From Acidimicrobiia bacterium (GTDB taxonomy: Bacteria > Actinomycetota > Acidimicrobiia > Spongiisociales > ZC4RG35), in contig JACCTH010000030.1 in assembly GCA_013812505.1 (NCBI GenBank), positions 1 to 57,127 on the forward strand: a stretch of DNA of 57,127 bases. The letters are read 5' to 3'. A model generated the notes under the pieces. That model was not told the DNA's origin. It saw only the letters and a program-made list of their open reading frames with translations, and did not search any database. Below are positions 110 through 40,237 of the stretch, in pieces; position 1 is the stretch's first letter; every line of letters begins with the position of its first letter. The translations under genes and the position numbers were made by a program.

Positions 110-152
110 TCAACTGATGCCGTGGCATCAGTTGATAAGTGCTTATCAACTG
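110..152. repeat. Two overlapping perfect palindromes (cap TCAACTG)
   Basis: Positions 110-135 form a 26-bp palindrome: cap TCAACTG, inner arm ATGCC, 2-nt centre GT, complementary inner arm GGCAT, cap CAGTTGA. Positions 129-152 form a second 24-bp palindrome that reuses the right cap: CAGTTGATAAG, centre TG, CTTATCAACTG. The two hairpins are mutually exclusive because they share 129-135. Confidence 0.9.
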
Positions 153-346
153 TGCCGGTCACGGGCCTCGATGGCAAGAAATACCCTGCCACGCGATCTT
201 CTGCCAACGTTTCGAGTCGTCACGGTGGATACCGAGGTCGGAGAGACTCGGTGCAGCCTGCGCCTTGAGTCCTGAGCCGCGTTCGACGCGTTCCCCGTTG
301 GCTTTCATGTCGCGGAGGATCTCTCCACCTTTACGCTCGGGCCGAG

Positions 347-392
347 CTGGTGCAGGCTGCACCAGGTGCAAGGTCATCTCGCGAGATGACCT
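347..392. repeat. Two adjacent perfect hairpins
   Basis: Positions 347-365 form CTGGTGCA, loop GGC, TGCACCAG. Positions 371-392 form a 22-bp palindrome with 11-bp arms starting AGGTCATCTCG. They lie 5 bp apart and are preceded by the 13-bp hairpin GCTCGGGCCGAGC at 335-347. No U-tract follows, so these are not classical terminators. Confidence 0.85.
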
Positions 393-582
393 GCGTCATG
401 ACCGCGGGGGAATCCCCAGGGCGTAATTATCGCCATGTTCTTCCACGAGAGGCCCCTAGAAGCCCCGTAGAGCGATTCTTTGATCGCCTCTGGCACCGGA
501 GCCCGGAAAAGAGGAGCCTGGCCCCAAAGAAGTGGCTTGTGCCCGGGCCGAGGCTGGATAACCGGTGACCCTTTCAGGCACC

Positions 583-598
583 TGTCCGATTTCGGACA
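583..598. repeat. Short perfect palindrome
   Basis: Arms TGTCCGA and TCGGACA flank a 2-nt TT centre. It is a weaker member of the hairpin series in the first kilobase and does not share the TCAACTG cap. Confidence 0.7.
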
Positions 599-763
599 CC
601 TGATCGGCCACCGGCGCACTTGGAGTATCTCAAGGGTTCGTTAGCAATCAGCTTGCCGGACTGACTCCGGGCTGCTGCCGATCTTCTCGGCGATTTGCGA
701 AGACGGAACATAGCCAGGAAGCACGGCATCCCACTAGCCGATGCGCAGATCGTCGCCGAATCA

Positions 764-789
764 TCAACTGATTTCGCGAAATCAGTTGA
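764..789. repeat. 26-bp perfect palindrome (cap TCAACTG)
   Basis: The cap TCAACTG and inner arm ATTTC are followed by the centre GC and the fully complementary GAAAT and CAGTTGA. The caps are identical to those of the palindrome at 110-135, while the inner arms differ and remain perfectly paired. Confidence 0.9.
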
Positions 790-902
790 CCTCCCTGACA
801 GCCGCGCCGATCAGATCGGGCCCCTTGCTGAGACCGGCCACAAGTAGACGTTTGGCCGGGCGAGACTTGCCGTCGAGACCCGTTATACGATCTTGCCGTC
901 GG

Positions 903-928
903 TCAACTGTTTCATCTGAAACAGTTCC
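903..928. repeat. 22-bp palindrome with TCAACTG-type cap
   Basis: Positions 905-926 are perfectly self-complementary (AACTGTTTCA, centre TC, TGAAACAGTT). Aligned with the members at 110 and 764, the left cap is intact and the last two bases of the right cap have diverged (CC instead of GA). Confidence 0.85.
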
Positions 929-1218
929 GATCTGCGTACCTGGCGGCGGATCCCGTGAGCGTCACAGGCCTCGAGCCGCCGAGCCTTCCGGGGGACGGAT
1001 GGTTTCCCCGGTGGAGTGCTTGTCATCACTCTGTCCGAGTCGACCGGGGGGGAAGTTGGTCTACGCCAACGATATCGTCATCACTCCACTGACCCAGGAC
1101 CCGGCCGGGGCGCTCAAGAAACAACACTCGCACGTGCCTATGACAGCGGATAACTTGACTACTGGCGCAGCGCGATGATGCAACAGTGACAAGGGTTTTC
1201 GCCTGTCTGCTTAGCGCT

Positions 1219-1271
1219 GGGGCGATCCTGGTTATGAGTCCGGCGCTCTGACCAGATTGAGCTACGGGCCC
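1219..1271 (-). pseudogene. Truncated tRNA-Met (CAU), 5' half only
   Basis: On the minus strand the sequence starts with acceptor strand GGGCCCG, then TA, the D-stem GCTC/GAGC with an AATCTGGTCA loop, and the anticodon loop CTCATAA, whose CAT anticodon indicates elongator Met or lysidine-Ile. The 3' side of the anticodon stem is CCAGG, with two mismatches to CCGGA. After about 1220 neither a T-arm nor a 3' acceptor strand follows. It is therefore a degenerate 5' half tRNA, cut near the variable loop, and not a functional gene. Junctions of this kind arise where elements integrate into tRNA genes. Confidence 0.6.
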
Positions 1272-1333
1272 CTCGTTGGAAGCTTACGAATCTTTCTGGG
1301 AAGATTTCGAAGCCAACCAATAGGAGGATGTGA

Positions 1334-2404
1334 GTGGGCTCAGTGACGGATCTAGCAGGGCGCGTTTTCGAAGGGGTCCTGGGCACGTTCGACACCTGGT
1401 CGATATATGTTGGGGACAAGCTGGGCTTCTATCGGACTATGCGTGATGGTAAGCCTTACGCCGCAGCCGAACTGGCAAAATCGTCTGACGTCGACCCGCG
1501 CTATGTCCGGGAGTGGTTGGAGCAACAGGCCGTGACGGGCTTGCTGCTTTGTGACAACCCTGGTGATCCCACAGAGGCCCGGACATATCGCCTCGAACCG
1601 GCCGGCGCCGAGGTGTTCACCGACGATCGGAGCCTCAACTTCCTCGCACCATTCGTCCGCCTGGTCACGAGTGCAGGTATTCAACTCCCCGAGTTGCTTG
1701 CGGCCTATCGCAGCGGCGGTGGGGTCGGCTGGGAGCAATTCGGCGAGGACATGCGCACGGGACAGGCGGGGATGAATCGGCCGTGGTTTCTATCTGTGTT
1801 AGCCAAGGAATGGTTCCCGGCCGTGCCCGAGATTCAGGCTCGCCTCGAGGCTGGCGCCCGCATCGCCGACATCGGGTGCGGCGAAGGATGGTCATCGATC
1901 GGCTTTGCGCAGGGATATCCGAAAGTCACCGTAGACGGATACGACCTCGACCAAGCTTCGATCAACGAGGCCACGAAGCATGCTGCGGAGACGGGCTTGT
2001 CGGAGAGGGTGCGATTCGAATGCGTTGATGTCGCGACTGTGGATCGCGCCGGGACTTACGACCTGGTCACCGCTTTCGAGTGCATCCACGACCTCTCCCA
2101 GCCAGTTGCGGTGCTAGCGGCAATGAAGCGGTTGGCCAAACCCGATGGCGATGTCGTGGTGATGGATGAGAAGGTGAACGAAGAGTTCCTTGGGTCCGAG
2201 GCGGGCGACGTCGAACGGGTCATGTACGGCTTTTCCTTGTTCACCTGTCTCCCCGACGGGATGTCTCGGCAGCCGTCGGCCGCGACCGGGACAGTAATGC
2301 GTCCGAAGACTCTTAAGTCTTACGCTAAGGAAGCAGGTTTCTCAGGAATCGAAGTCCTTCCCATAGAGAACGACCTATGGCGCTTCTACCGCCTCGTGCT
2401 TTGA
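1334..2404 (+). CDS. Class I SAM-dependent methyltransferase, Rv2258c-like
   Basis: This 356-residue protein has the two-part layout of mycobacterial Rv2258c. An N-terminal winged-helix dimerisation region (about 1-110, including the LAKSSDVDPRYVREWLEQ segment) is followed by a Rossmann methyltransferase domain. SAM-binding motif I is ADIGCGEGWSSIGFA near residue 178, and an acidic loop follows at GYDLDQASI. The GTG start at 1334 sits 6 nt after a strong AGGAGG. The gene stands alone, and a hairpin immediately downstream (2413-2450) probably ends transcription. The substrate cannot be predicted; a small-molecule methyltransferase is most likely. Confidence 0.85.
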   Translation: MGSVTDLAGRVFEGVLGTFDTWSIYVGDKLGFYRTMRDGKPYAAAELAKSSDVDPRYVREWLEQQAVTGLLLCDNPGDPTEARTYRLEPAGAEVFTDDRSLNFLAPFVRLVTSAGIQLPELLAAYRSGGGVGWEQFGEDMRTGQAGMNRPWFLSVLAKEWFPAVPEIQARLEAGARIADIGCGEGWSSIGFAQGYPKVTVDGYDLDQASINEATKHAAETGLSERVRFECVDVATVDRAGTYDLVTAFECIHDLSQPVAVLAAMKRLAKPDGDVVVMDEKVNEEFLGSEAGDVERVMYGFSLFTCLPDGMSRQPSAATGTVMRPKTLKSYAKEAGFSGIEVLPIENDLWRFYRLVL

Positions 2405-36539: not shown

Positions 36540-37286
36540 ATGTCGAGCCTTTATGAGGAGGTGGCGAATCGCCTCGAGAGGGCGATCCGGTCGGGGCGGT
36601 ACGTCCCGGGTGACAGGTTGTCGCCTGAGCGGGAGCTATGTGCCCAGTTTGGGGTGTCGCGGGCAACGCTTCGCAATGCACTCGACGAGTTGGAGCGGAG
36701 CGGGCTGATCAACCGCCACCAAGGTCGAGGCACCTTCGTCGCTCGAACGAGAGTGGAAACCGATCTACTTTCGCACTTATCGATCGGAGCCGCCCTCCGG
36801 GCGCGAGGCCTTGACCTAAAGAACAAGGTGATCGAGCTCTCAGGAGGCCATGCTGATCGGCCGACAGCCCAGGACCTCGGTGTCTTTCCGGGCAGCCCAG
36901 TCATCCGATTGGTGCGGCTACGGTTGCTCGAAAGTGAGCCGCTCATCCTGGAGACCACGTATCTTCCCTCGTCTCTATTTCCCGGATTGGTGGATCATGA
37001 CTTCTCCGCACTTTCCCTCTACGACCTGCTCCGGGACCACTATGGACGGGCGCCGATATCAGCTGTTGAGACCATCGAACCGGTCGTGCTCACCCTGATC
37101 GAAGCACGTGTCTTGGGGGTGCCGAATCATGCGCCTGCACTCCTGGTCCAGCGGGTTGCTAGAGACAGAGAGGCGGTTCCGGTCGAACTCTCACACCAGC
37201 TGCTGCGAGGGGACCGAGCCCGGTTTCTCCTACAGCTCGACTTTTCGAACATCGATCTCGAGCCTGTCGGGAAGGAGAAAAGATGA
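36540..37286 (+). CDS. GntR/HutC-family regulator with UTRA domain
   Basis: The winged helix (about 5-70) reads [63 protein letters not shown]. The C-terminal UTRA ligand domain (about 85-240) has the usual [20 protein letters not shown] and [11 protein letters not shown] segments. It is typical of sugar-responsive repressors such as NagR, which sense phosphosugars. It is the first gene of a six-gene operon; its TGA overlaps the SIS gene start (ATGA). The palindrome at 36499-36521 is the likely operator. Confidence 0.9.
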
Positions 37287-38907: not shown

Positions 38908-40237
38908 GTTCCCCGTGATAGCCGAAGCCGACGTTGTGATCGTAGGGTCGGGGTCCGCCGGGTCATCGGCTGCAATCGCCGCAGGTCGATCGGGCGCCGA
39001 TGCTGTCCTCATCGAGAAGCTGCCCTTCCTCGGCGGGACTTCTACCGCGGTGCTGGACACTTTCTATGGGTTCTTCACCCCAGGGAATGTCTCCAAGAAG
39101 GTGGTCGGGGGGGTCGGCGATGATGTCGTGACCGGACTCAAGGCCCTCGGACCCGTGATCAGGCGCCCCAACACATTCGGCGCAGGAATGGGCATCACCT
39201 ACGTGGCTGAACATCTCAAAGTGGTGTGGGAGCGACTGGTGCGGGAGGCAGGGGTCAGGGTGCTGCTGCACACTTTCCTCCAACATGCCATCGTGAACAA
39301 CGGATGGGTCGACGAGATCGTCGTGGCAACCAAAGCCGGGCTGAGACGAGTGAGGGCAACGGTGTTCGTCGATGCCTCGGGCGACGCCGATCTGTGTCAC
39401 TTCGCTGGGTTCGGATATGAGCGTGCCGGGGACGCAGGACCGGTACAAACGCTCACCACCACCTTCCGGATGGCCAACGTCGATCGAGCCCGCCGCGCCT
39501 CCATCGACACCAAAACGCTGCACGGCTTAATGGCCGAGGCGGCCAGCGGCGGTGGCTACGACCTCCCTCGACGGGAGGGCAGTGATCACATCACTCCCAT
39601 AGACGGTGTCACTGCAACGATCATGACCAGGCTGCCGTCGTACGAGCGTCATGCCGACGGCACAGCTGTCAACGCCACAGACCCGGACTTTCTGACAAAC
39701 GCCGAGATGGATGGGCGGCGCCAGGCATTGGAGTATGTGCGATTCCTGCGGGACCACACGCCGGGCTACGAGAGTGCTCAGCTGGTCGCTCTCGGTACTC
39801 AGATCGGGGTGCGGGAGACGAGACGGGTCTACGGAGATTATCGATTGACCGCCGAGGATGTGCTGGGTGCAGTGAGCTTTGACGATCAGATTGGTCTCTG
39901 TGGCGCGCCAATCGAGGACCATCATGAAGGAACGGACACACGATGGCGCTATTTGCCTGATGGAGCGACCGTGGGAATCCCCTACCGGTCCCTCGTGGTC
40001 CGTGACGCAGGCAATGTGCTGGTAGGGGGTCGGTGTTTCTCAGCTACCCACGACGCGCACGCCTCGGTCCGGTCAATGGCCCAATGCATGGCGATGGGTC
40101 AAGCTGCCGGAGCAGCGGCGGCCATGGCCGTCGCCGACGGAGTATCGGCCCGTGACGTGGATGTCCACCGGCTGCAGTCCGCTCTATCGCGCGGGGGGGC
40201 CATCATCGAGTCCGACGACGCCGTAGTGGCGCCATGA
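38897..40237 (+). CDS. FAD-dependent oxidoreductase (FAD_oxidored type)
   Basis: This 446-residue flavoprotein starts with ADVVIVGSGSAGSSAAIAAG and EKLPFLGGTSTAVLDTFYGF, the FAD-binding blocks of the family that often includes sugar-processing or heterodisulfide-like proteins. Mid-protein RVRATVFVDASGDADLCHFA and the C-terminal GRCFSATHDAHASVRSMAQC MAMGQAAGAAAA complete the FAD site. Homologues are frequent next to GntR, Gfo/Idh and TIM-barrel genes in carbohydrate loci. It may oxidise a hydroxyl of a glycoside or cyclitol. It overlaps the ROK gene by ATGA. Confidence 0.85.
   Translation: MWDKFPVIAEADVVIVGSGSAGSSAAIAAGRSGADAVLIEKLPFLGGTSTAVLDTFYGFFTPGNVSKKVVGGVGDDVVTGLKALGPVIRRPNTFGAGMGITYVAEHLKVVWERLVREAGVRVLLHTFLQHAIVNNGWVDEIVVATKAGLRRVRATVFVDASGDADLCHFAGFGYERAGDAGPVQTLTTTFRMANVDRARRASIDTKTLHGLMAEAASGGGYDLPRREGSDHITPIDGVTATIMTRLPSYERHADGTAVNATDPDFLTNAEMDGRRQALEYVRFLRDHTPGYESAQLVALGTQIGVRETRRVYGDYRLTAEDVLGAVSFDDQIGLCGAPIEDHHEGTDTRWRYLPDGATVGIPYRSLVVRDAGNVLVGGRCFSATHDAHASVRSMAQCMAMGQAAGAAAAMAVADGVSARDVDVHRLQSALSRGGAIIESDDAVVAP

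Follow-up and report, generated by a model that had tools for sequence, protein, structure and literature searches.

The parS site inside parB of Bacillus subtilis occupies codons for the linker that follows the DNA-binding domain, where it encodes the peptide NVPRET. A second point of reference is the inverted repeat GTTCRACTG(N11)CRGTYGAAC, which we take to be the published StrR operator. The parB (spo0J) gene of B. subtilis contains a parS (PMC4333373), and the sites described here resemble it in being palindromes of a ParB-family binding type within the gene of their own, in our case predicted, binding protein. Chromosomal parS sites (consensus taken from PMC7022226) have one near-universal sequence in several copies, whereas in the present family the inner arms differ from homologue to homologue, and as a rule a single copy lies within the gene. 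The parS and NBS sites of ParB and Noc offer another likeness, as these related symmetric sites have halves that differ at set positions as specificity changes (PMC7383237), but they are spread over the chromosome, whereas the present sites are tied to one codon position. StrR-family regulators combine a ParB-like N-terminal region with a tri-helical helix-turn-helix (HTH; PMC10886168). The site of the StrR-like Bbr/Dbv4, GTCCAR(N)17TTGGAC, has the same 29-bp length as GTTCRACTG(N11)CRGTYGAAC, but different caps (PMC6022936).

We analysed a stretch of 57,127 nucleotides (hereafter the window), which is contig C54 of a 2.8-Mb genome of an Acidimicrobiia bacterium in 115 contigs (G000). The palindromes lie at its left end and comprise the following features.

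110 to 135, plus strand: palindrome W1, TCAACTGATGCCGTGGCATCAGTTGA, with 12-bp arms, translating as S T D A V A S V (D).
129 to 152, no strand assigned: palindrome CAGTTGATAAGTGCTTATCAACTG, with a half-site in common with W1 and its caps facing outward.
371 to 392, no strand assigned: perfect palindrome AGGTCATCTCGCGAGATGACCT without caps, from the palindrome scan.
764 to 789, no strand assigned: palindrome W2, TCAACTGATTTCGCGAAATCAGTTGA, perfect with 13-bp arms, and encoding S T D F A K S V D whichever strand is read.
903 to 929, plus strand: palindrome W3, TCAACTGTTTCATCTGAAACAGTTCCG, reading S T V S S E T V P.

The initial annotation had placed the caps TCAACTG and CAGTTGA at 110-135, 764-789 and 903-928. 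All three pairs are present, the third only in part: W3 is perfect over 905-926 (10-bp arms), but neither the TC at its outer end nor the C at 927 is paired. The palindrome at 129-152, which reuses a cap in reverse orientation, lies where it had been described and has 11-bp arms. Of the further hairpins proposed (335-365, 371-392 and 583-598), the first was found at 347-365 and the second as stated, while the third is short and unremarkable. The palindromes are genuine and far more numerous than chance would give, with five in positions 1-1330 versus 0.013 expected (arms of at least 10 bp, loop of at most 8; first-order Markov resampling). No CRISPR-type repeat family occurs in the region. Like 371-392, the palindrome at 347-365 is uncapped, and the reading as intragenic sites developed below covers neither of these, nor the outward-facing palindrome at 129-152.

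The palindromes are all contained in a short segment that ends at a partial tRNA gene.

1 to 1231, no strand assigned: decayed integrated element (prophage- or ICE-like), truncated by the contig end, containing all palindromes and bounded by the tRNA half.
1232 to 1272, minus strand: 5' half of a gene for tRNA-Met(CAT) that breaks off in the anticodon loop; a left attachment remnant, identified by its match to relatives.
1334 to 2404, plus strand: Rv2258c-type winged-HTH methyltransferase (Pfam), a host-flank gene outside the element.

The tRNA half matches intact tRNA-Met genes of relatives at about 90-95%, and gives a weak Rfam tRNA match. In one relative (G021), about 3 kb separate such a half tRNA from an intact tRNA-Met, which is preceded by an integrase-like frame, likely a tyrosine integrase judging from its sequence. 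Given this arrangement, positions 1-1231 are most simply explained as the terminal part of an element integrated at a tRNA gene, the remainder being cut off by the contig boundary. The segment of the relative itself (L010, contig C2, 2002-5182), flanked by half and whole tRNA-Met, forms a compact element of some 3 kb that includes the integrase-like frame. Six-frame translation of 1-1231 revealed remnants of frames and no intact gene; no parA was seen in this segment, and a comparison with phages and plasmids gave no meaningful DNA similarity.

Among these remnants, the palindromes can be read as codons. Six-frame translation of 110-135 gives STDAVASVD, followed in frame by VTGLDGKKYPATR (110-196 reads STDAVASVD...VPVTGLDGKKYPATR), and 903-971 reads STVSSETVP...GGGSRERHRP. 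The remnants concerned are as follows.

158 to 196, plus strand: VTGLDGKKYPATR, with a 'GxDGK' motif that comes after the palindrome in intact homologues too.
192 to 329, minus strand: gene fragment GGEILRDMKANGERVERGSG...PSLSDLGIHRDDSKRWQKIA, fused head-on to the W1 fragment (six-frame translation).
942 to 971, plus strand: GGGSRERHRP, probably a decayed 'GxDGRERxRP' motif after W3 (six-frame translation).

The GxDGK context is present after W1 and decayed after W3, and W2 has no clear one. No HTH could be read upstream of W1-W3 in the remnants. The fragment at 192-329 presumably resembles a common phage/ICE protein; it had no Pfam match, and Pfam recognised none of the window fragments.

A scan of viral contigs for TCAACTG(N12)CAGTTGA gave mostly chance matches, but led to contig L096, where the pattern scan found TCAACTGATGCAAATGCATCAGTTGA, whose 11-bp arms are common to window 110-135. 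Both L096 and the phage contig L152 read STDANASVD at this point, ahead of a GxDG motif, and in L152 this peptide comes directly after an HTH. The half-site spacing of the window sites is 12, the same as in L152 and L096, and the peptides of W1 and W3 match the linker after the HTH of ParB/StrR-like DNA-binding proteins. Since L096 and L152 share this reading with the window, the window palindromes are most likely coding sequence or remnants of it. It is unlikely that they are instead ordinary intergenic operators or terminators of a phage or ICE, in non-coding DNA with an incidental coding reading. The region has decayed and retains hardly any intact gene, and in L096 extra sites of the form AACTG(N3)CAAATG(N3)CAGTT cluster beyond a truncated frame, both as an intergenic origin would have it; against this, VTGLDGKKYPATR follows W1 in frame, and intact homologues have the site at the same codons. 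L096 also has another family of inverted repeats, GAGGGGTTCATCGGTTGAACCCCTC, with four or more copies (468-494, 2019-2083, 2314-2338).

Within the genome, the exact cap pair is confined to the window, and a second locus, on contig C95, has related sites: positions 130-152 recur there as an identical 23-nt copy, next to a further palindrome with caps, GAACTGTCCAATGCCATTGGACAGTTC, in the same contig. The 23-nt palindrome AGTTGATAAGTGCTTATCAACTG, identical at window 129-152 and C95:36422-36444, has its caps outward and unrelated flanks at the two places. The element on C95, a prophage-like contig, shares short segments with the window (window 450-531 and 526-562; C95 near 36857-36898, 37171-37254 and 39914-39950), which contain a coding-like ...KESLY... 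and a possibly promoter-like AAAGAAGTGGCTTGTGC...GGATAAC, and it has uncapped palindromes as well. It is an integrated element (C95:36365-40652 / C70:1-867) that interrupts comM, of which the N-terminal part lies on C70. At the break, both comM parts carry the same 9-nt ATGAGCGAG, which is probably the attachment core of the element. It encodes a WhiB-like gene and a protein that, by eye, resembles an HK97-type capsid; the latter had no PHROGs match and no relatives in viral contigs or in the same order.

Beyond this genome, a check for the cap pair in 138 genomes of the same order yielded no second locus of the family. The pair occurred in eight of these genomes, and outside G000 never in the family context; one palindromic-looking match (G083) was rejected, as it falls in a TPR-like reading frame. 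The pattern AACTG(N4)AAAT(N4)CAGTT gave two chance-like matches in 296 genomes, a masked profile (A2) run over 396 genomes retrieved mostly generic HTHs, and a comparison of the SgcR1-like regulator with solved structures gave no match. Homologues of the intragenic site were found only beyond the order. A tblastn search with the phage peptide as query led to a gene of an Agrobacterium phage-plasmid, which resembles ParB (NCBIfam parB_part, E = 1e-4, below its cut-off), and through it to homologues in Leptospira, rhizobial phages and Streptomyces. The set comprises parB-like genes of Leptospira, MT-A70 proteins of rhizobial phages and StrR-like regulators of Streptomyces, among them the regulator of the C-1027 plasmid.

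Most of the homologues retrieved by protein similarity have a palindrome between the HTH and GxDGK, at the same linker codons. The sequence is TCAACTGGGGAAATTCCCCAGTTGA in Leptospira, GTAACTGGGGAAATTCCCCAGTTAC in Agrobacterium, AGTCGACTGGGGAAATTCCCCAGTCGACT in Nitrobacter, TGGTGGGGAAATTCCCCACCA in phage Rivra and its relatives, TGGTGGCGAAATTAGCCACCA in a Mesorhizobium phage, and GTTCAACTG-N11-CAGTTGAAC in a Streptomyces regulator (L388). An actinobacterial phage is likewise among the intact relatives with a palindrome at these codons. Several StrR-like genes (L389, L392, L393) have a weak palindrome or none. The earlier observation that the caps are constant, and that the inner arms vary yet stay complementary, extends to relatives in several phyla. 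Changes are paired across the two arms: where GEIPQL becomes GEIPQS (Leu to Ser), the opposite arm changes from TCA to TCG, and where GEIPH becomes GEISH (Pro to Ser), it changes from GGG to GGC. In a Leptospira plasmid, where parA is linked to the parB-like gene, the palindrome occurs twice in the same operon, in the parB-like gene and about 90 bp upstream of parA, and the latter copy has 17-bp arms.

Paired changes would also be expected if the palindromes acted as RNA, i.e. as mRNA hairpins involved in translation control, termination or protein binding, since a stem would likewise keep its pairing while its sequence changed; most sites could indeed fold with a small loop. Several observations make this quite unlikely. 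The caps are conserved in sequence and not in pairing alone, a second copy lies upstream of parA, and the mismatches in the homologues inspected by eye are of types such as C-A and C-T, not G-U. In some sites the symmetry reaches the centre (764-789 has no unpaired loop), which fits a dimer site and is of no use to an RNA hairpin. Moreover, no Rfam family was found at the gathering threshold; at a relaxed E-value threshold, only chance-level matches and the half tRNA appeared.

We evaluated the palindromes against a null in which each peptide is fixed and synonymous codons are drawn at the local third-position GC content. At p < 0.05, 20 of 32 homologues were more palindromic than this null, many of them being closely related. 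We picked 21 representatives by protein similarity, with the exception of L376 (the L152 phage gene), which was found through its palindrome. Ten of these were individually significant and 11 were not; combined by Fisher's method, the 21 representatives, which are not fully independent, gave P = 4e-15 at the site. In contrast, control windows in the same 21 genes gave P = 0.80 (25 codons upstream) and 0.82 (25 codons downstream). For the window sites p was 0.003 (W1), 0.0045 (W2) and 0.0055 (W3), values that show only that the coding reading fails to explain the pairing, as W1-W3 were found because they are palindromic. The proposal that selection acts on the nucleotides is thus upheld in relatives of several phyla.

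These results also bear on two further explanations. It is scarcely credible that a conserved protein motif such as GEIPQ or STVxxETV produces the palindrome incidentally: the peptide motif is indeed conserved inside each clade, but such palindromes hardly ever result when the same peptides are recoded with random synonymous codons, and silent changes opposite match the protein changes (GEIPQL/TCA versus GEIPQS/TCG). A mutational origin without selection, by template switching that perfects quasi-palindromes or by a mobile mini-palindrome inserted in frame, would suit the several different perfect palindromes close together in decayed DNA, and the uncapped ones on C95. We regard it as very unlikely, given that gene position and caps are constant across phyla, and that the sequence 25 codons to either side in these genes shows no excess.

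The caps themselves point to a class of protein-binding site. TCAACTG and CAGTTGA are half-sites of GTTCRACTG(N11)CRGTYGAAC, and this consensus occurs with 0-1 mismatches at the homologous codon position in five intact StrR-like homologues (L388, L316, L385, L387, L391). The window sites resemble the StrR operator in their inverted half-sites with caps TCRACTG/CAGTYGA. However, the spacing is 11 in the StrR-like, Leptospira and Nitrobacter sites versus 12 in the window, where no site has the 11-bp spacing, and the inner arms in the window are perfectly or nearly perfectly complementary. Fitted at spacing 12 to GTTCRACTG/CRGTYGAAC, W1 and W2 have three mismatches and W3 has five. Furthermore, known sites of the StrR family have been described in promoter regions, whereas here they lie inside the regulator's own codons. 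Of the window sites, W3 comes closest to parS: 908-923 is identical to canonical parS TGTTTCACGTGAAACA at 14 of 16 positions. Against the parS consensus TGTTNCACGTGAAACA, W3 has two mismatches in the central CACGTG, and W1 and W2 do not match. The genome as a whole (93% complete) contains no canonical parS within one mismatch, and W3 is its best match.

Taken together, the capped palindromes are probably intragenic self-operators, parS-like sites predicted to be bound by the ParB/StrR-like proteins in whose genes they lie. Coding context, palindromicity beyond codon choice, gene position, covariation, the operator-type consensus and the parA-upstream copy are computed from the sequences; from these we infer protein binding, autoregulation and a partition function of the sites. 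The linker codons just after the DNA-binding HTH would double as a symmetric DNA site. The homodimeric protein would most likely bind the site in its own linker codons and so control the operon that encodes it; where ParA is linked, the site may also serve as a centromere. The caps would be constant as the part of the site recognised throughout the family, and the inner arms would differ between homologues as specificity drifted, remaining complementary since a dimer with two-fold symmetry would read the two halves in the same way. A symmetric dimer site with drifting inner specificity would explain constant caps, covarying arms and a fixed position without RNA. The genes that hold the sites in the window would be broken remnants on a decayed element at tRNA-Met, with the sites surviving inside them.

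Two suggestions of the initial annotation are not supported by this comparison. The window sites are not a new free-standing element, as the palindromes lie within genes for ParB/StrR-like DNA-binding proteins, or what is left of their coding sequence. Likewise, there is no need for a machinery that writes inverted copies, since the caps match StrR-type operator half-sites and a symmetric protein-DNA site would account for the covariation.

A more general design, for which we consider the chances about even, is that ParB/StrR-like regulators of mobile elements carry their operator or centromere in the linker codons adjoining the DNA-binding domain. Domain exchange would then carry the address along, and the linker peptide (STDANASVD, STVSSETV, GEIPQ, RSTAESPQLN) would be shaped more by the DNA site than by protein function. 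If the self-operator reading is true, the sites of uncharacterised ParB/StrR-like regulators could be read from the regulator's own gene, which would apply to activators of antibiotic clusters (C-1027 plasmid) and to partition proteins of phages and plasmids. The co-evolution of operator and protein would become traceable across phyla by sequence alone, and a protein motif would be explained as the shadow of a DNA site.
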